A stretch of DNA of 64,000 nucleotides from Cystobasidiopsis lactophilus (Eukaryota; Basidiomycota; Agaricostilbomycetes; Agaricostilbales; Chionosphaeraceae), in NCBI GenBank assembly GCA_001599975.1, contig BCIO01000006.1, positions 143,156 through 207,155 of the forward strand, given 5' to 3'. Below, in pieces: positions 8,234 through 59,412 of the stretch. The stretch's first letter is position 1, and each line of letters starts with the position of its first letter. Position numbers and translations under genes: made by a program. The notes below the pieces were generated by a model, which had not been told where the DNA came from, did not search any database, and was given only the letters and a program-made list of their open reading frames with translations.

Positions 8234-10863
8234 TTAGACGGCGGCGGCAGAGGCGTTTGCTAGCGACAGGCTCGCCATTTGCGACACCTCGTCCGTGCGC
8301 TCGATCAGCTTGGTGATCTTGCCGATCGCCACCGTCTTGCCTGCGTCACAAAGTGAGCATTTCAAGAGCGCGTGACGCGGGGAGAAGGTGAGAGCCTTAC
8401 CTTCGTCTCGCAGAGTGAAGCGCCCAAGCGCGGCCACGTTGTCAAACTTCTCGACGCAAATCGGCTGGTCGGTCTCAATGAGAGCAACGATCTTTTGGCC
8501 TGTGCATGAAGGAGACACGAGCGCATCAAGTCCATTGCTCGCAGAACCGAAGTTGGGCGAGGGCACTCACCCTTTTTGGCAAACTGAGGAGGCTTCCGTG
8601 ACTTTTTGCCAGTCTTCTTGTCGAAGTAGTGCAGCAGAGCCTGTACGAAACAACTGTCAAGGTCCGACATAGAAGGCAGACAAGGCATGGACCAACCGTG
8701 AGCTGGCATTCTTCAGCCAAGGTGTGGCAATGCAGGACGGCGCTGTAGCCGGCGCAGATGATGTTCTTGTGGTCAAGGATGGCGAGCTGCGCTTGGAACT
8801 GGGTCGAAGCGTGGACTGGCTTCTTGGCGTCGCATAGAACGAAACCGACGGCGACCTCTTCCTCCTCCACACCCCGCAACCGGATGCGCACGTTGTCTCC
8901 CGCCAGTGCCGATGGCACCTCCTCTTCCATCTCGTTGTAGATGGCCATGACCTCGACAGAGTTCTGAGCACGGCGGGATCAGTTCCAGCCAACAATGTGA
9001 CTTTCTTCGAGCGGAGGCGCACCTTGTTAGGCATGAGCATCAAGTTGGAGCCCTTCCTCAAACGACCAGCTTCGACCTTGCCCACCACAATGGTGCCCTT
9101 GTCGCGATACTTCTCAGAAATCGGCATCACCACCGGGGCATGCACGTCGCGGTCGGTCAATGGGATATTGTCCAACAGCTCCAGCAGCGCGGGACCGCTG
9201 GAAACTCGCAAGCAATGAGATAAGGTAAACAAAGGGAATGAGGATCGACCCGCACCTGTACCAAGCACAGACATCCTTCTTGACCCTCTCCTTCAAGTTG
9301 GCACCTGTGAAGGCTGAGACAGGGATGAAGGTGACCATCTTCGAGTTGAATCCAGTAGTCTTAATGAACGGCGTCATCTTGTCCACAATCTCCTTGTACC
9401 TGGAGCGTGATAATCGTTGAGCAAGCAGGTCGCAAAGGTGGCGACATTTCACGAGCGTACCTCTCCTGGGCCCAGCCCACAGTCGATTCGTCCATCTTGT
9501 TGACGACAATGATGAGCCTTTGAACGCCGGCCGTGCGAACCAGCATGGCATGCTCTCGTGTCTGGCCGCCCTTTTCAAACCCTGTCTCGAACTCGCCCTT
9601 GCGCGCTGAGATGACCTGTTTCATCAATCATTCAGTATCGCGCTAAATTCCAGACGCTAGGGAGGCGCCACGCACCAGAACGGCGACATCTGCCTGAGCA
9701 GCGCCAGAAATCATGTTGGGCACAAAGTTCTTGTGGCCGGGTGCGTCGAGAATGGTGTAGCGCCGGGATGCGGTTTCAAAGAAGGCGCGGCCAACTTCTA
9801 CAGTGATACCCTGAAGGACAGGAGCAACACAAGTATTAGTCAATGGTTTCGCATTTTGGGGTTGGGTGCCCCCTCCAAACAAACGAACCTTGTCGCGCTC
9901 CTGGGTGGTAGAATCCAATGCCCAAGACAGAGCCCACGTCTCTCTGCCAGCTGCCTTGGATTCGCGCTCGTACTTTTCCATCGTTCTTTGGTCCTGTTGA
10001 CAATAGCGCGCACCCGGTCAGGCCTGCGAGCAACCCAGAGCATCCCTGCTTAAAACGTACCACCATGCCTGATAGATAAAGCAGGTTGCCACCCATGGTC
10101 GACTTGCCAGCGTCGACGTGACCGATGAAGACGATATTGACGTGCATTTTTTCTGTAAGCGAGGGAGCCCACGTAAGACGTGCATTGGAGACGCTCGAAA
10201 TTGGCAAAGCCGCTCACCATGCCCTGAGTCTTGCCCGTACAAATCATCTAGCTCAGCCTGGTCCGCTGCAGCCGCGACTTCCTTCTCAATAAGGTCCGCG
10301 TTCTTTTGCTTCTCCGCCTCCTCTGCCCGCTTTTCGGCCTTGGTCTCCTTGTGCTTGGCCTCATCTTTAGGAACAGCAGCCACTGGCTTCTTCTCAACGG
10401 GGGTCGAAGTGCCCGAGTTGCCGGCCTTCGGGGTCGCAGGCGGAGTGGGTTTGGCAGCTGGCTTGGAGCCGCCGATGGAAAGGGAGACGGTCTTGCCTTC
10501 GCCAGAGGGCGGTGGCAGCGTGATTGGCTTTTTCACGGGAGCAGGAGCGGGCGCCGGAGCAGGCTCGTCCTCCCAGGACTCGGCAGGGCCTCCAGGCGGC
10601 GGAGCTTGCGCCTGAAATTGCTGAGGATAGTAGCCCGGTTGGGGCTGCTGATAGTAGCCTTGCTGGGGCTGCTGGTACTGGTTTTGATATGCTGCGAACT
10701 GGTCGTAGCCCTGGGGCTGCTGGAATTGTTGAGGCGGCGGAGGACCCTGCTGGCCATAAGGGTTTTCCCCGGGGCGCAGGATGGTGGGCTGGAAGCTGGG
10801 CACGTTGGGCCTGAAGTTCTGGCCGGGCTGCCAGCTTCCTGCGTTTGGATTGAAGCCGCTCAT
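8234..10863 (-). CDS. SUP35: Translation termination factor eRF3 (Sup35)
   Basis: GTPase that works with eRF1 to release nascent chains at stop codons. Starting at ATG 10863, the N-terminus is rich in Gln, Tyr, Pro and Asn ([36 protein letters not shown]), like the yeast prion-forming N domain. A middle domain is Lys/Glu-rich ([19 protein letters not shown]). The G domain shows GHVDAGKST (P-loop), [13 protein letters not shown] (G3) and NKMD (G4). C-terminal beta-barrel exons include [16 protein letters not shown]-like and [17 protein letters not shown], and the protein ends ASAAAV at 8234. The gene is cut by roughly nine or ten short introns. Assignment is firm. The OCD-like gene ends 79 bp upstream on the same strand. 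Confidence 0.95.
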
Positions 10864-10942
10864 CGTTGGCGACGGTGTTGGAGAGAGAGGCCCAAAAAGT
10901 GACGACTTCAATGCAACTCGGAGCCGAGACTTGTGACTCCTC

Positions 10943-12335
10943 TCAAAGGTCAACCCATTGCCCTAGCTTTCGTTGAACAGCTTCCTCGAACATTCTGTGT
11001 GCTTGAGTCAGAAGCAGCGACCGTGTGGCCGAAACTAAGGAGTTCGCCACTCACAAAGCGGTGATGCTGACATCCATTGTGCCGAAGCCAACACTCTGTC
11101 CCAGCGCATCAGTACCAAAGGGAACATTACAGAAATAGAAAGAGCAAGACCTTGTAAACCATCGTCTGACCTCGTGACACTCTGGCTGATGCTTTCGAGT
11201 CCTCTTCGCCCTTGTCATCAACTAGCGTTCCCAGTTCGATCACTTCCAGCTTGCTCGGATTTGACTTGAGGAACTGGAGCTCTCCCGCTTCTGCCAGACA
11301 GGCTTCGCGCGAGTCCAGTAAAAGCGAGGTGGTTTGATTAGAGGAAACTAGGCTCTCCAGATCAAACTCCTTCATGTTGGGTTTATAGCTTCCCACAGCG
11401 GTAATCAAGCACGGCTTTCGAATCCAAGAAACCGGAAACAGGTGCTCCGTAGCAGGCGTGCATCTTGACCAAGGTGCGTTAGCACTCAAGACTGGCAGAA
11501 ACACACGAGACGTACAACGAAATCACATCGGCCGTTCTCAGCACTTCTTCAGTCCGGGCTTTCTCGTCCAGAAGGCTTCCAGAGACATTGGTGACTCGAG
11601 GTGGCAGGGCTCCGGTGGTTTGATCCATCACTTGGTGCAAGCGCTCCGCTGACCGGTTGATAAAGTGAATCGACGTGAGCCCAGGAAGTTCTGCTGCCGC
11701 TAGGCCTATTACACAACAGAAGAGATACGTCAGATGAGCGATTACAGCCAAGCTCCTTGGACGCACGAGCGTGCCAGTAGGCTTGTGTGCCAGAGCCGAA
11801 GATCACGATCGCTTTGGCTTCTTTGGGAGCGAACAGACGCATGGCGAGCGCCGAGCCAGCCCTGTGCCCTCACCAGGCGCGCGTTGGAATTGTACATGGA
11901 CTGAGCAGACGCCACTCACGCAGTGCGAACACCCGTTAAGCTTGATGCATTCACCACCGCTTTCACGGCCCCGGATTCATCATCGAACAGCAGGGAAGTT
12001 GCTGGCAGGCCGGCTTTCTCCTTTCGAACAGATACCACCTTGATGGTCGTCGTCGACTTCGACCTGAAATGCAGTGAACACTAAGCTCCGCGGATTGATG
12101 TACAAATGCCAGAAACTGAGCACCCTTCGGTCAGATTGGCAGGCATAAACAGGATTGTGTTGCAAGGCGTAGAAACGGAAGAGCGCAGTGGGCTCTGAGT
12201 CTGGACAGAGGCACCAAGGAGAGCAGAGGAAGCAGCCGCATTCAACGCTTGGCCAATTTGCGAGACAATGCGAGACGGCGGCAGACTGTTCAAGATTGAC
12301 TGCACAGCGGCCTCCGAGAGCACTAAGGTTGACAT
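10943..12335 (-). CDS. Ornithine cyclodeaminase / mu-crystallin family oxidoreductase
   Basis: NAD(P)-dependent enzyme of the OCD/mu-crystallin fold, whose members include ornithine cyclodeaminase, alanine dehydrogenase and ketimine reductase. ATG at 12335 opens MSTLVLSEAAVQSILNSLPP. Substrate-side exons include TILFMPANLTEG and VVSVRKEKAGLPATSLLFDD. The Rossmann segment AIVIFGSGTQAYWHAR carries the GxGxQ nucleotide-binding signature. It is followed by LTSIHFINRSAERLHQ, then MHACYGAPVSG-like and ITAVGSYKPNMKEFD (the family GSY..D.REld motif), then RGQTMVYK and SVGFGTMDVSITAL. A short last exon ends at 10943. At least six introns. The precise reaction cannot be deduced. It is divergent from the TCD gene with 103 bp between starts. 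Confidence 0.85.
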
Positions 12336-25555: not shown

Positions 25556-25829
25556 GGCGGACCTCAAATGAAAGTCTTGGCTCTCCCGTGAGGCCCAAGG
25601 CTACAGCAGTGCTGCAGCGTTTTCCCTGTTCTCTGACCACCAGCCGCGATAATTATTATTATTCACTCTGCACGGTAACGCTGTACTCAACAAGAGGCCA
25701 CGCCTCATTCCTCAAGTCTGCGGCACACGCGACTCGATGTTTGTATCTACTCTGCCCAACGGCTCTCGGCTTGCGCAGGGCCAAGCCTATTAATTATTCT
25801 GATTCCGACCAACCAGCATCCTGTCCAGC

Positions 25830-27488
25830 ATGATCCAGCTTTCGCCCACCCAGGAGGAGGCGCCGGGCACGTTGTTTGCAAAGGATGGCAAGGACAAGAG
25901 CAGGCGGCGGAAAGTGCTGGCTGCCCTGTTCTCGCTGGTCCCACTCTTCCTCTTGGCGCACTTCTACAAGGACAGCGTGTCCTCCAAAGCAGCTCTCCGG
26001 CAGGTCTGGAGCAAGATGGGGCGCGAATCGAAGGTGCAGCTGCCGCCGTGCGGCAAGACGATGCTGTACCTCTTCTGTATGCGCATTAAAGTTCCGTGTT
26101 GCCATTGGCCACGTTTAACGCATCCGTTGTTCCGCAGCTGGCACCAAGGGCTTCGGCTCGACGTATGGGATCTATGTGCGGTCAGCGCTATGGGCCAAGG
26201 AACACAATTGTGAGTGTTTTTGCTGTTTTGTTGACACCAACACGTCCACGAGCTGATGCCGGGCCCGCAAACAGACACCCTCTTGGCGGGCACCTTTCCA
26301 GGCTGGGTGTATGGCAGCTACGAAGACTACTTCGAGCACCCAGTCCTCACCTGCCAGCCGCACGAAGGGGCGTGGGACTACCGGAGCGACCGCACTTGGA
26401 TTGGCACCGAAGGGTGGGAATCGGCCGACCACATCGTCACCTCGAGGGCCAGCTACGCCGCGGTGGACCGCTGGCTGGTCTCCAAGTACGTGGACCTCGA
26501 GGCGTACAACGACCTGCCCACCATCGACACTTCAAAGCCGCTGCCTTACGACCAGACCCTGCCGTCCGTCTTAAGACCGTCTTTCTTGGCCCTGCACAAG
26601 GAGTTCAGGCTGCTGTGGCGGCCCAAGGCGAAGCTGGACGCGATGGTGCAGAGCGTGCGGAGCGATTTGGGGCTGGGACCTGATGTGCAGTCGCGCGGCC
26701 ATGTCGTTGGGTGCGCACGTTCTCCTGCGGTTGCCTTGACGGGATCTCATTGCTGAGGCAGCCTTCACTATCGTGGCGGCGACAAGTTCAAGAACGAGTG
26801 CCAGATCGCCAAAGGCTGGTGAGCCACTCATGTAGAAGTTGGAGTGCACGCCTCTTTGCTAACTTGCATCGAACAGCGGGAACGCTACAATCTACTTGGA
26901 AGCCGCTCTGGACTCCTTGCGCCGTCTGCCCGCCGCGTCTTGCTCCACTTGCAAGCCCATCTTGGCCGTCATGACCGTCGAACCGCACGTTAGCGACACT
27001 TTTGCAGCAGACCCACTTTCCGCCAACTTCGACATGCGCTTCCTGCCGCCGCCGCCGACGGGACTGAAGGGACACGACCAGCACGCCTTCAACACTTGGC
27101 CGTTGGACGAGCGGATAGGCGACACCATGACCATGCTGCGCGACCTGACCGTCCTCTCCATCCACGCCGACGCCTTTGTGCTGACAGGCAGCAGCAATGT
27201 TGGCGTTACTGCCATGATGCTGGGAGGGCCGACAAAAGTGTTGAGGAGCATCGACCAGCGCTTCCAGCCAACAACCTTGGTGAGTCGGAGACTTTGCAGC
27301 GACTGTCCCTTCAGCCCTTGCTTACATGCCTTCTTCAGTGGATATCCCACTATGCAGAGCTGGCAGCGCTGGCCAAGCAACGGGAAGAACTCCAGCAGCA
27401 GCCAGAAGCGAGGGCGATCGAGCCGCCACGGCGGAATCCGAGCCGTCGTCACCGGATGCCAGCCCGTCACTGGCAACTTGTAAAGTAA
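25830..27488 (+). CDS. Golgi type II fucosyltransferase-like glycosyltransferase
   Basis: Probable inverting glycosyltransferase of the GT23/POFUT fucosyltransferase-like superfamily. The N-terminus has a short basic cytosolic tail (KSRRRK) and one signal-anchor helix (VLAALFSLVPLFLLAHFYKD), the Golgi type II layout. Exons continue PCGKTMLYLFSGTKGFGSTY, then TLLAGTFPGWVYGSYEDYF and DLEAYNDLPTIDTSKPLPY. A key exon reads HYRGGDKFKNECQIAKG, comparable to the H-x-R-R-x-D nucleotide-sugar loop. The C-terminal exon has LSIHADAFVLTGSSNVGVTA then MMLGGP, comparable to the S-N-x-x motif near the family C-terminus. The tail is Glu/Arg-rich and ends HWQLVK at 27488. Donor and acceptor sugars are unknown. 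Confidence 0.65.
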
Positions 27489-54057: not shown

Positions 54058-55271
54058 ATGCACAGCCGGTCGTCCTCTCAAGTGGGACTCTTGCTCAGAG
54101 TCGATACCTCTTCGGACCAAAATGCTTTGGAACTTGAGAAGTCGAAAGCGCCGCTGGACGGCCTCGAGGTTTCGCCAAAGCTGTCCACGCAGTGGAAGAC
54201 GAACGCGCTGGTTCTCGGCTGGTATCTAGCAACTCTGTTCGCAGCCAACGCCAGCAAGGCGTTCTTGGGTCGCGGCGGCAATGCGATCATCTTCTCGAGT
54301 GTGACTTTCGCCAGCGGAGCTGTTCTTGCAGCAGCCGAGTGCGCAAGGGGCAATGGGTGGCGTTGGTTCACGCCAGATCTCGCGGCGGTAGCTTGCCTTC
54401 ACTGCTGCAATACGGTGAGCCTGCCTGTCCGACCACTCGCTGAACCACCGATTCATTCGGTGCCCAATATCAGATTCTCACGACAGTCGGGCTGTCAGAA
54501 GCAAGCATTCGAGTGGTCTATACCTGTAAAGTGAGCAGCCTTCCGACATCGGTTGCAGAGTCTAACTTGCCCTAGGCCCTCGAACCGTGCTTCACGCTTC
54601 TCTTCGATAGCTGGCTTCACCTCCGACTGCCGAGCATTCTTTCAGTTGGCGTCTGTTTGTCGATTGCGGCCGCCACCCTATTTGCCATCGAGGGCGACTT
54701 GACGATCTCGCGCTATGCTCTTTGCGTCTCGCTACTCAGCACAGCTATGGCGAGCGGACGGACAGTCCTCTTCAAGTCCAGTCAAGCTTCAGGTATCCTG
54801 GCTCTTGGAATAACATCTGAGTCCGCTGAAAATGGTGTGCTCGCAGCGCACGACTCCCACCCTCTCCTCGCCTTCTCATTCATCAATTTGTTCAGCTTCG
54901 CCTACTCCTTGGTGTTTGTCGGCTTTTCCGAATCCTATCTCGACTTCCCAGCTTCCTTTACGCTCCAAACTCTGTCCCCTCTAGTGGTGGCCGTTGGATG
55001 CACTCTCCTCTACAACAATTTCTCCTTTCAAGTAGCGGCCCGCCTCCGTGCTGTCACCCATTCTACACATAATGTCCTCAAGCGGCTGGTGACTGTGATG
55101 AGCAGTCTTCTTTGGTCGTGCGTTCCCTTTCTGTCGTCTAAGCTTGCGGAGAGCACTAAGCTTCCTGCTTAGCCGAGGCGCGATTGGTACTTCAAACTAC
55201 TTGGCACTCCTCATCAGTGAGTTCCTTGCGAAATTTGTTCGGGGATCCAGGAGCTCAGTTGGTGGCTGCAG
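54058..55271 (+). CDS. TPT-family Golgi transporter, probable PEP carrier; N-terminal half of a fusion
   Basis: Drug/metabolite superfamily transporter of the triose-phosphate-translocator type, close in layout to S. pombe Pet1, a Golgi phosphoenolpyruvate transporter. ATG at 54058, then TM1 (ALVLGWYLATLFAANASKAF), TM2 (NAIIFSSVTFASGAVLAAAE), QILTTVGLSEASIRVVYTCK, ALEPCFTLLFDSWLHLRLP (family K-ALEP motif), SVGVCLSIAAATLFAIEG, ASGRTVLFKSS and THSTHNVLKRLVTVMSSLLW (family T-H-x-x-N-x-x-K-R motif). Two 55-nt introns with GTGCGT (55118-55172) and GTGAGT (55217-55271) donors then carry the frame through SRGAIGTSNYLALLI directly into the pyruvyltransferase. If the first is retained, a stop occurs at 55172. 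Listed separately from its partner for clarity. Confidence 0.8.
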
Positions 55272-56563
55272 TCCCCGCCCTATCCCAGACTTTGCTGTAT
55301 GTGCAACCTGCCTCAAAAGCTGCGGCACCAGCTTCCAGTCGAGCTGTCAAATCCAACTTCCTCAGCGTCAAGATGCTGGCGACCGTGGCAGCGCTGCTTG
55401 TCAGCCTTGCGGCCACTTCACCCATCGCGTGGCATGGGCAAGGGCTCGATCCAGTGCGCGGTGCCTTTTCGATGGCTGAGCTACAATCCATGAGCGGCCC
55501 TGAACCGACTACCGCGCCATTTGTGGATGAAGCGTCGGAAGCAGGGGAAGAACCGGACTGGCCAGCGTTACCCGACGATCCTCGAGCCTTTGCTGTCGAG
55601 CCAGCGTCAGAGAAACCAGCCGCCATTCGAGCACCCGGCCTGTTCTCCCGGCCTTTGCCGCCATCTCCTTCGAATCAATTGGAACAGGCCGAAGCGGCGT
55701 TCGTTCGAAATTGCAACCCATCCAGCCACTTCTATCGCCCTTGGTTCTGGCGGAAGAACGAAGAGCAAGGAGCGCCTCAAAATTTTGGTGACGAGCTCAC
55801 CGCCAGCTTGCTGGAGCGCATGGCGGACAAGCGGGTCGAGCGGGCCGAAGACGACGACCAGCGCCCCCGCCTTCTGTCTGTAGGCTCCGTGGCGAAATTC
55901 GCCCAGCCTTGCGACATAGTCTACGGCTCTGGCATCAAAAGCATGTACGAAGCGTTCGATACACCGACGGCCAATATTCGAGCCGTCCGCGGCCCTTTGA
56001 CGCGCCGCCGCATCCTCGAGTGCCAGCCCCGCCAAATCGTTCCCGAAATCTACGGCGATCCGGCACTCCTCTTACCCACCTTCTTCCCAGAGTTTCAGCG
56101 CATTGAGCGGCAAGGCGATACGCTCCGCAGCCGCGTCTTAGTCATCGAGCACTTTGACGACGAAGGCACCATCGCGCCATCGCCCGAGTACCGAATCATC
56201 TCTGCGCTCGCCGAGGACTGGCAAAGCGTAGTCCACGAAATCTTAAACTCGACCTTTGTCATCTCCTCGTCGCTCCATGGCCTGGTGGTGGCGGACGCTT
56301 TCGGTATTCCGTCTCGAGGCTTGATTCTGTGAGAGCCTCTTCTTCGCTATGTACCCGATCGATTCTTATTGCCCAACCTGAACAGGAACCTCCGCGAGCC
56401 GGACTTCAAGTTCGCCGATTATTACGAGGGCAGTGGCCGCCGCAGTTATCGAAGAGCTAGTTCGGTCGACGAAGCATTGTGGCTAGGGCCGGAGCAGTCC
56501 CTTCAGGAGGCGAAGTGGGATTCCAAGCTACTCATAGAAGCCTTTCCCCGTCAATACATCTGA
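55272..56563 (+). CDS. Polysaccharide pyruvyltransferase (Pvg1-like); C-terminal half of a probable fusion
   Basis: Transfers pyruvate from PEP onto sugar residues as a ketal; S. pombe Pvg1 does this on galactose in the Golgi. The PS_pyruv_trans domain shows NFGDELTASLLERM near the start, LLSVGSVAKFAQPCDIVYGS then GIKSMYE, IRAVRGPLTRRRIL, EIYGDPALLLPTFFPE and VISSSLHGLVVADAFGIPSR, all family landmarks. A final intron with donor GTGAGA joins to LNLREPDFKFADYYEGSGRR and the stop at 56563. A hydrophobic stretch with an in-frame ATG at 55373 (MLATVAALLVSLAATSPIAW) could be an independent signal-anchor start, but only about 100-200 bp separate it from the transporter, and the upstream frame is open and joined by good splice sites. 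Confidence 0.82.
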
Positions 56564-56684: not shown

Positions 56685-59412
56685 CTAATAGCCATTGTCA
56701 AGCGTGTTGATGAATAGCGTGGGCGAAAGTAGTGCGCATTGTTGCTGGTAGACTGGTGGGCTGTTTTTAGGGTCAAGCGAGAGGAGCTGGAGAGCAGATG
56801 GAGATGTGGCGGTGTAGGGGCCAAAGTGTGTCTTCGAGGTGAGATATGCTGAGCCCGCGTATTTTTTGCCCCGCGCGGCGAAGTACTTGAGCGGCACGTT
56901 GGGGTCGTGCGTGCGCACCATGGAACCCCATATGTCGGAGATATACTGGTTGTATGTGAGGTTGTTGTTGAAGGAGTAAGGAATCTCGAGAACATTGCTG
57001 GTGCCGAAGACTTCCAATAGATCCTAAAGGGCCGCAGTAAGAACTCGGCTAGAAGGAACTGTACGAAAAAGGCTCACCTCCGTGTGGCAGACTTGGTTCT
57101 GCCCGTCGGCGGCGGCTCCTGGCACACAGGCAGGGGGGAAGGCATCGTTTGCTGGATACCCGCGGTCCATGCGGTAAGACCAGAGCTTGCTGAAGACATG
57201 TTTTTGGGCGGCTTGGTCGATGATCTGCTGCATAGGGCACTGCCAGGCGAAGAGGGTGAGTAGTTGGGCGGCTGCGTTTCGGACGCCATCCGGGTCGGAG
57301 CGGTTCAAGGGAAAGAGGGTTGGGTTGTCCTCGACGATCGAAGCGATAGCCGGACCAAAATTGAGTTCGATTGCGGTATCATAAATTAGGACGTTGTTGG
57401 GAAGCGGTTCTCCCTGAGCAATGGTGGCTCAGGCGCTGCAAACAAAAAAGAGCGTGGAAGCCTCACAATAACCTCGTCGACGAAAAGCGTTGACTCGTTG
57501 GCATTATTTCCGATGAGAAAAGGAATCCCTCTGTTCGGGAGAGCTGAAGAGATCGTCAGCCTGGATCGTACCAGAAGAGGTCAGATTTTGCACATACTTC
57601 CATTTCCACACAAATAGAAGAAGTGGTCGTCTACGACACCAGGAACAGTGCCCACTGTTGGAACATATGGCTCGATGCTGGTGAGCGCCAATGTGGATCC
57701 GGGCAGGTACAATTCCTGGGAGGCAGATGAAGCCCTCGAGACCTGCTTGATGGCCTCAGGCGAGATGAGTGCGCTAGCAGGAAGTCGTCGCAAGCAGTCG
57801 ACAATGGCATGCTCGTCGCCCGTGCTGGGGCATCCGGTGGCGTTTGCGAGAGCGCTGACGATGGGCGGCCAGACGCCGCGGTTAAAGAAAGTGATGCCGA
57901 TCGGATTGCTTTCTGAGATTGCCGCATGGAACAAGCCCTTGGCAGAAGACGAGGAGAGCACAGCTGCAACTGATTGGGCGCCAGCGCTGCAAGAAAGCAT
58001 TGAGCTTTGTGAGAAGACAGACACAAGGTATTGCCCACCTTTCTCCGTATAGCTGGCCGACATGCTAGATCAATGACCTGGAATCCCCATTCTAAAGAGA
58101 GAAGACTCACGGTCACTTTGGTCTTGTCGCCCCCGAAAAGCCCAATGTTTTGGTGGACCTGACGTGCGATCGATTGCTCAGCACTGAAGGCCACGGGTTA
58201 AAGAAACCGCAATTCACCCATTTTAAGGCTGCAATCTGGTCTGTTGTTCCTTGTGAGCCATCAAGAAGGCTGGAAGACGCCAGTTGTCCAAAGGCACCCA
58301 ATCGGTCTGACGGTGATGCGGCCATGCTCAGCCTGCGTTTGCGAACAGCTGACAGGCTCTTACAGTTGAGCGTCACAACCACAATATCACTAAAAGCGGG
58401 CCATGAGCGTAAATGACAAGAACGCAACGTGGACAAAGTCTCACGATCTCGACACCGCATTGCCACCGTCATAAAGCGGAAGCGCCCCGGAGCCCTGCTT
58501 GAGAGGTTGGTAAAGCACCAGAATCGCAAAGCAAATATAACTTAATGTAACGAAAGCGCCGCCATAGATCCAGACGGCAACCGGAAGCAAACGCTTCGAC
58601 CCCACAGCAGGAGAATAGACATTGAGGGTTAAGCAGTCTTCGGACTGCGGCTGACCCAAAATACTGTCGCCTTCTTGAATGCAGGCCGGACCGTAAGACG
58701 TTGCAATCACTTGGCGAGCTAATTTGGAGGCTGGCTGTGCTGCAGCGAAGCGAAGCCTGCCCACAGGGGGTTTGGCGAACGGAATGCCCAGAAACCGCCA
58801 GGATCGAGCGTCCCTGAAGCCGGTGACGTGGCTATCATCTTTTGAGGTCAGCGAGACCAAGTGGTCTTTGGCCGTCGAGTTGAGTTGGTGGAGGGTGTAC
58901 GGGGCGGCAGACTGGGTGCAAAGGGTTGCCAAAGGAGTCTTGCAGTTGACCTGCACCACCTTCTTCTTTCCTACCGACCACGCAGCGCAAGTTCGTTTGC
59001 AGTCACAGCCACTCTTGCACTTGCGATGTCCGGACGATGCCAGCGACCAGGTGTCGATCCAAAGGTTTGCAGACTTTGAGAGTTCTTTGCTGTAGACCAG
59101 ATACGAGAGTTGATCCTCGATGTCGCTCGAGACGTCTGAAAGGGTGCTCTCGCCGAATGCCGCGCAGGCGGTCGCTGTTGACGGGGACGAAATCGGTTTG
59201 CTGAGGAGCAGCGCACCAACAGAGGGCTGGGAAGACAGGTCGTTTTGATAGAGTACTCGAGCTGGACCAGTCTTGGAGATGTCGGCGGGCTTGCAGCTGA
59301 AGCCTCAAACACATGAGAGTGGGCCTTGTCCTTCTCGTTTGCTGGCTTACCCTGGCCGCTGGCCAGCAGTTGCCAGACCACATAGTGCTAGTGTTAACAA
59401 GACCGCCTGCAT
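56685..59412 (-). CDS. Secreted type-B carboxylesterase/lipase
   Basis: Alpha/beta-hydrolase of the carboxylesterase B family. The ATG at 59412 opens a signal peptide (MQAVLLTLALCGLATAG). Exons give RSWRFLGIPFAKPPVGRLRF, SEDCLTLNVYSP and LPVAVWIYGGAF (oxyanion GG), then SSLLDGSQGTTDQIAALKWV and QHIGLFGGDKTKVT-like. The nucleophile elbow LYGES comes from a 14-nt micro-exon (58039-58052) and continues AGAQSVAAVLSSSSAKGLFH. C-terminal exons include DLLEVFGTSNVLEIPYSFNN then YISDIWGSMVRTHDPNVPL. The triad His is expected just after the VFG-SN..E-PY block, in the H-x-x-E-x-P-Y-like region. About 560 residues and ten or more exons. Substrates could be lipids or acetylated polysaccharides. Confidence 0.88.
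58039..58052 (-). other. 14-nt micro-exon encoding the esterase nucleophile elbow
   Basis: Minus-strand CTA TAC GGA GAA AG lies between acceptor GGCCAG and donor GTGGGC. It joins VT to C GCT GGC GCC, giving VT-LYGES-AGAQSV, the family's V-T-x-x-G-E-S-A-G consensus. The catalytic Ser codon itself is split by the downstream intron. Confidence 0.75.

Follow-up and report, generated by a model that had tools for sequence, protein, structure and literature searches.

Does a single gene of the basidiomycete Cystobasidiopsis lactophilus encode both a carrier and the enzyme that would use its cargo? Pet1 and Pet2 of S. pombe are transporters of the TPT type. According to the accessible parts of two reports, Pet1p and Pet2p bring phosphoenolpyruvate (PEP) into the Golgi for the Golgi-membrane pyruvyltransferase Pvg1p (PMC4872226; PMC6801904), with the activities residing on separate proteins. 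By contrast, in the 64,000-nucleotide stretch of DNA analysed here (the window), a TPT-type carrier and a pyruvyltransferase are modelled as one polypeptide.

In the spliced reading, a six-exon frame at 54058-56563 on the + strand encodes a single 744-residue protein with no internal stops. The coordinates proposed for this gene in the initial annotation are correct, including the ATG at 54058, the donors at 55118 and 55217, the length of 55 nt for both introns that follow these donors, and the stop codon ending at 56563. Its statement that these two introns clear the only obstacles in the frame is right in part: both introns were correctly placed, but the whole frame requires five, with the others at 54415-54473, 54531-54575 and 56329-56385. 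The features of the model are listed below, where ranks refer to total splice scores among 430 model introns, a set that is itself predicted.

54058..54414, + strand: exon 1, with the start Met, the N-terminal tail and the first carrier helices (helix numbering assumed)
54415..54473, + strand: intron 1, 59 nt, GTGAGC...CAG, total score at rank 75% of the 430 model introns
54474..54530, + strand: exon 2, the final residue of which is the pocket lysine K138
54531..54575, + strand: intron 2, 45 nt, with CTAAC, total score at rank 31% of the 430 model introns
54576..55117, + strand: exon 3, with the middle carrier helices including A197, Y284, K307 and R308
55118..55172, + strand: intron 3, 55 nt, which takes out the TAG at 55170-55172
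55173..55216, + strand: exon 4, with the start of carrier helix 10
55217..55271, + strand: intron 4, 55 nt, across which the carrier frame changes to that of the transferase
55272..56328, + strand: exon 5, with the remainder of helix 10, a basic linker, helix 11, a spacer and the bulk of the pyruvyltransferase
55358..55414, + strand: helix 11, residues 363-381, signal-anchor-like, with 20-residue flanks whose net charge is +4 towards the carrier and 0 towards the enzyme
55373..55375, + strand: internal ATG, the start of a stand-alone transferase in a rival model
55781..56323, + strand: PS_pyruv_trans match (Pfam), residues 504-684
56329..56385, + strand: intron 5, 57 nt, with an in-frame TGA at 56330 inside
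56386..56563, + strand: exon 6, with the C-terminal end of the transferase and the stop

The initial annotation had placed a TPT transporter and a PS_pyruv_trans domain in one open frame, and both domains indeed exceed their curated Pfam cut-offs in the spliced protein. TPT (PF03151) covers residues 49-330 (profile positions 4-279 of 291) with 41.8 bits against a cut-off of 30, and PS_pyruv_trans (PF04230) covers residues 504-684 with 41.1 bits against a cut-off of 25.3; no third Pfam family was found in the 744 residues at E up to 1. Homology to bacterial enzymes independently supports intron 5: in a comparison with 84 bacterial loci, the best score was 181 bits for the spliced form of the enzyme and 171 bits for the unspliced form, and the HSPs that covered 20 or more residues of the last exon numbered 61 of 85 with the spliced form versus 50 of 85 with the unspliced form. 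Elsewhere the splicing would be as drawn, the open frame running through predicted introns.

The enzyme half is the only PF04230 match in the genome (22.1 Mb, 8 contigs). Among plasmid records, 47 were related to it at E up to 1e-3, all with less than 60% identity. A first search of prokaryote genomes with the single sequence found no relative of the enzyme; a search with an alignment returned at least 588 pattern-matched stretches, 533 of them with enzyme relatives, from which the best 80 were retained, and of the nine prokaryote relatives at the top of this ranking (L037-L045), eight belong to the Chlamydiae. When 34 of the best 80 bacterial relatives were aligned with the enzyme, identities ranged from 33 to 47%, and 20 columns were invariant across all 35 rows, including N30, G32, D33, R99, G100, P101, L194 and H195, with Ser as the residue preceding the invariant L-H in the subfamily of the fusion enzyme. 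The invariant N-G-D, R-G-P and L-H are thereby shared with PF04230 pyruvyltransferases of Chlamydiae, Alphaproteobacteria and other bacteria, whereas the fusion gene differs from the bacterial genes in having an intron within the domain and a carrier preceding it; the neighbours of the bacterial genes were judged from the annotation of four plasmid loci. These relatives, drawn from plasmid records and prokaryote genomes, suggest a bacterial origin of the enzyme.

Close kinship of the enzyme to Pvg1 did not appear at the level of sequence. Searches of the PDB with two enzyme profiles returned no chain at E≤1, Pvg1 included, a search with the enzyme alone returned one irrelevant chain (E 0.73), and the relatives that were found are bacterial. 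For a comparison of folds, we used an AlphaFold2 model of the part of the enzyme encoded by exon 5 (212 residues, pLDDT 82.9, the last 59 residues left out). Foldseek against the PDB ranked the uncharacterised 6x1l first (E 2.4e-4) and Pvg1 (5ax7) second and third (E 3.3e-3 and 1.1e-2), the match to 5ax7_A at rank 2 having a probability of 1.00, a TM score of 0.56 by query length and an rmsd of 6.7. This moderate match suggests a Pvg1-like fold of the enzyme half. The modelled fusion would thus resemble the S. pombe system, as far as the latter is described in the accessible text, both in pairing a PEP carrier with a pyruvyltransferase and in a predicted fold relationship between the two enzymes. 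D106, R217 and R337 of Pvg1 are proposed to be catalytic in the part of the source available (PMC4872226); the invariant D33 and R99 are present in the fusion enzyme, and a residue-by-residue match to the three Pvg1 residues was not reached.

TPT carriers are more numerous in this genome (22.1 Mb, 8 contigs), with at least 11 exon-level matches, of which L004, L007 and L008 belong to a single gene. The TPT half of the fusion, which is divergent and split over exons, is absent from these 11 matches, the counts being lower bounds. Hydropathy analysis revealed seven segments in the carrier half, followed by helix 11 and by one more segment within the enzyme at residues 661-679; helices 1, 4 and 9 were assumed from the family pattern. 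A PDB search with the carrier sequence alone gave no match, and with a profile of the carrier and L004 the sole PDB sequence at E≤1 was 5y78/5y79, a putative hexose phosphate translocator matched in three stretches (E 2.8e-13). We take 5y78 to be a Galdieria protein.

The substrate pocket offers a view of the likely cargo. In Arabidopsis TPT, as described in the part of the source available, the pocket consists of His184, Lys203, Phe262, Tyr338, Lys359 and Arg360, of which Phe262 is thought to exclude PEP, and several PEP-accepting TPTs have Ala or Ser instead; diatom TPT2 carries PEP with the Phe retained and with other changes, and the Phe rule is thus not strict (PMC6981301). With these positions, alignment and spacing to 5y78 give the pocket of the fusion carrier as Thr119, Lys138, Ala197, Tyr284, Lys307 and Arg308, in which four of the six residues are kept (K138, Y284, K307 and R308). 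Y284 was assigned by a gapless hand count, 23 residues before the Lys in both the carrier and 5y78, at a place where the profile alignment has an insertion; the Tyr-to-Lys spacing is 21 in Arabidopsis versus 23 in the fusion carrier and 5y78. In the alignment with L004 and 5y78, A197 takes the place of the Phe believed to keep PEP out, a position at which L004 has Phe. The pocket His of the published set is not kept, T119 standing at that spacing with a His nearby at 115. Compared with plastid-type phosphate translocators (5y78; TPT, PPT) on this partly available description, the fusion carrier belongs to the same family and has the same pocket Lys/Tyr/Lys/Arg, but those translocators are enzyme-free, and the fusion carrier has Thr in place of His and Ala in place of Phe. 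We predict that its pocket is of the phosphate type, and it looks open to PEP.

The paralogues place this pocket in context. Among the seven that were checked, the Lys-Arg pair is kept in L004 and missing in five (L005, L006, L009, L010 and L012), and L002 was unread. L004 (G000:C3:815820-819179), presumably a Sly41-like protein, is modelled as a stand-alone TPT carrier with the pocket His/Lys/Phe/Gln/Lys/Arg. It resembles the fusion carrier in the Lys-Arg pair, but differs in standing alone and in having Phe at the PEP-related position and Gln at the Tyr position. Given the exception to the Phe rule reported for diatom TPT2 in the accessible text, L004 could conceivably carry PEP as well. The family TIGR00817 (phosphate/PEP translocator) was dropped as evidence for PEP: the score of the fusion carrier lies far under the cut-off (37 versus 317.9 bits), and other paralogues match too, making the match unspecific; L004 itself reaches 183.7 bits, far above the fusion carrier.

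The case for a single chain lies in the short region between the two halves. It had been proposed that only 100-200 bp separate the domains, too little for a separate promoter; this distance was imprecise, as the Pfam matches stop at residue 330 and resume at residue 504 and ~45 bp lie between helix 10 and the anchor helix. The promoter-spacing argument is weak, and the absence of a stop after helix 10 is a stronger one. Carrier helix 10 is split by intron 4 and is present only in the joined frame, which is the transferase frame, and from helix 10 onwards this frame stays open as far as the end of the enzyme part; a carrier that includes helix 10 would need a further splice to terminate by itself. 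The linker at 55272-55372 has a coding score of +3.6 in the fused frame versus -8.8 and -5.2 in the other two. When seven sequences were aligned, helix 10 fell on the corresponding helix of each of the six paralogue models, with an insertion of 2 residues; the pairwise alignment with L004 and the profile alignment to 5y78 both needed larger gaps to place it, and the helix-10 match depends on the alignment method and is not robust.

We also asked how often such a join would arise in shuffled sequence of 55110-55372 if no more than two introns were permitted, each 44-80 nt long with a donor score of at least 4.5 and a YAG acceptor. Under these strict settings, the real sequence offers a single way of passing from the frame of the carrier to that of the transferase, through introns 55118-55172 and 55217-55271 with observed donor scores of 5.1 and 5.2. 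Among 2000 dinucleotide shuffles of the region, any join occurred in 44 and a join with a TM10-like hydrophobic segment in 1, with thresholds that were fixed after the introns had been seen and that include no branch-point requirement. A second run made 1000 shuffles at each of four settings, the strictest being the one used above. From strict to loose, it gave any join in 25, 89, 237 and 586 shuffles and TM10-like joins in 1, 5, 14 and 60, the real sequence having 1, 1, 3 and 6 joins. The shuffle control thus loses force as the thresholds are loosened.

A home-made gene finder, trained on 264 kb of the genome with the fusion gene excluded, called the enzyme half alone (55373-56563, from the ATG at 55373, score 23.8) and omitted the carrier half, and an anchor helix starts at this ATG. 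Both observations favour an arrangement of two adjacent genes: the first would code for a TPT carrier and finish near 55172 or in a different frame, and the second would code for a type II pyruvyltransferase that begins at ATG 55373 and has a signal anchor of its own. A first pass of the gene finder had joined 54058-56563 as one gene with partly different introns, using generic splice sites and a coding model built from long ORFs that included the enzyme's own ORF. Scored as coding versus noncoding in the modelled frame, exons 1-6 give -6.1, -6.2, -4.8, 0.0, 32.6 and 1.0, four of the six lying at zero or below, and the carrier exons show little codon bias; in the three long exons, both alternative frames score far worse than the modelled frame. 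The weak splice scores of introns 3 and 4 also speak for two genes. Among the 430 model introns, their total scores rank at 6% and 16%, their donors are middling (55% and 59%), and their combined acceptor and branch-point scores are lowest (0.0% and 2.6%); taken separately, the TAG acceptor of intron 3 ranks at 3% and its branch point at 2% despite two CTAAG, and the acceptor and branch point of intron 4 rank at 26% and 17%. These scores are weak, not prohibitive, because many introns of the same set score weakly too, CTNAY near the end being absent in 161 of 430 and the branch point being at its floor in 81 of 430. The 71 codons of open frame upstream of the 55373 ATG prove little for a fusion, since such frames are not rare: among noncoding ATGs with sufficient sequence upstream, 11 of 168 have one, as do 21% of 3433 ATGs irrespective of coding (33 open codons are found at 49 of the 168 noncoding ATGs). 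What argues against two genes is that a carrier stopping at 55172 would be without helix 10 and that reading on without intron 4 also breaks this helix, whereas the frame that contains helix 10 is that of the transferase and runs on without a stop, and the linker scores better as coding sequence in that frame. In our judgement, helix 10 and the lack of a stop outweigh the weak codon bias, and we prefer the fusion, with a confidence lowered by the acceptor ranks of the introns and by the gapped helix-10 alignments; two separate genes appear unlikely. We think it quite improbable that one gene yields two products, the full fusion and a stand-alone enzyme made through an internal promoter or start at 55373, an arrangement suggested by the internal ATG immediately before a usable signal anchor.

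A further alternative agrees with the preferred reading on the fusion itself and departs from it in the cargo, which would be not PEP but something else, such as a different C3 phosphate or just phosphate. The divergence of the carrier (41.8 bits), the Thr at the pocket His position and the low TIGR00817 score (37 bits against a cut-off of 317.9), in a model that an unrelated paralogue matches equally, are in line with another cargo. By contrast, the four pocket residues kept out of six and the replacement by Ala of the Phe believed to exclude PEP point to PEP, and the pyruvyltransferases described in the available parts of the literature use PEP (PMC4872226; PMC6801904). A fusion with a cargo other than PEP therefore strikes us as improbable, and we retain PEP as the expected substrate of the carrier.

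TPT-family carriers have both their N- and C-termini in the cytosol. With the carrier ends on this side, helix 11 and its flanking charges predict that the enzyme lies in the lumen; on the question raised in the initial annotation, whether the transferase would be lumenal, the basic linker and the +4 and 0 flanks of helix 11 fit a lumenal enzyme. Pvg1, in the accessible part of its description, has a type II anchor and is supplied with PEP by Pet1p and Pet2p (PMC4872226). Joining a carrier to an already anchored transferase keeps both topologies, which makes the fusion mechanically plausible. Between helix 11 and the Pfam domain lie ~120 residues (382-503), and tight tunnelling is therefore not implied.

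Taking these observations together, the reading with the best support, itself partly supported, is one chain that combines a PEP-type carrier with a pyruvyltransferase facing the lumen. In the mechanism that we propose, the TPT carrier half would take its cargo, most likely PEP, out of the cytosol and into the lumen of the Golgi, probably in exchange for phosphate. The C-terminus of the carrier would return to the cytosolic side, from which the short basic linker would lead to helix 11, and helix 11 would serve as the signal anchor of the ketal-pyruvyltransferase and set the enzyme in the lumen. The enzyme would then move pyruvate from PEP onto a sugar, freeing phosphate, and the carrier could export the phosphate released by the transfer. 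We infer the Golgi location, PEP as the substrate, the sugar acceptor and any local hand-over of PEP. As a whole, we consider it probable that the locus encodes a 744-residue fusion of a TPT carrier, most likely for PEP into the Golgi, with a lumenal ketal-pyruvyltransferase of bacterial type. More tentatively, and with considerable doubt, we propose a carrier-enzyme fusion in which PEP would be consumed as soon as it is brought into the Golgi; here the transferase would sit at the carrier exit, the released phosphate would be the counter-substrate, and a eukaryotic TPT carrier would have been combined with a bacterial-type pyruvyltransferase.

On the question of the sugar acceptor, a PF01762 search of the genome gave one match (E 6.7e-4), which exceeds the cut-off together with its in-frame neighbours. 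In the window, a predicted protein at 25737-27488 on the + strand has a hydrophobic segment near its N-terminus and no Pfam match at 1e-3, and its product resembles a Golgi-type enzyme by eye. The convergent neighbour of the fusion gene, at 56685-58325 on the - strand, is a carboxylesterase (PF00135, 131 bits); when five window models were scanned with Pfam, this PF00135 neighbour was matched and the other four were without a match at 1e-3. At 8234-11842 on the - strand, the gene finder joined a release-factor-like GTPase to a piece that by eye is dehydrogenase/cyclodeaminase-like, most likely a merge made by the program.

A fusion of a carrier with a pyruvyltransferase is described in no title or abstract start among the matches listed from the open-access literature, and among the open-access papers naming PF04230, PF03151 or PS_pyruv_trans, none has PF03151 together with either of the others. 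The parts are known and the covalent arrangement appears new, and it may be on record in domain-architecture databases or fungal genomes. If real, the fusion would tie the supply and the use of a substrate together across an organelle membrane by a single chain. On the reasoning that fusion partners work jointly, it would also hint that a TPT carrier with such a pocket carries PEP for pyruvylation, and it would provide a one-gene test system for metabolite hand-over.
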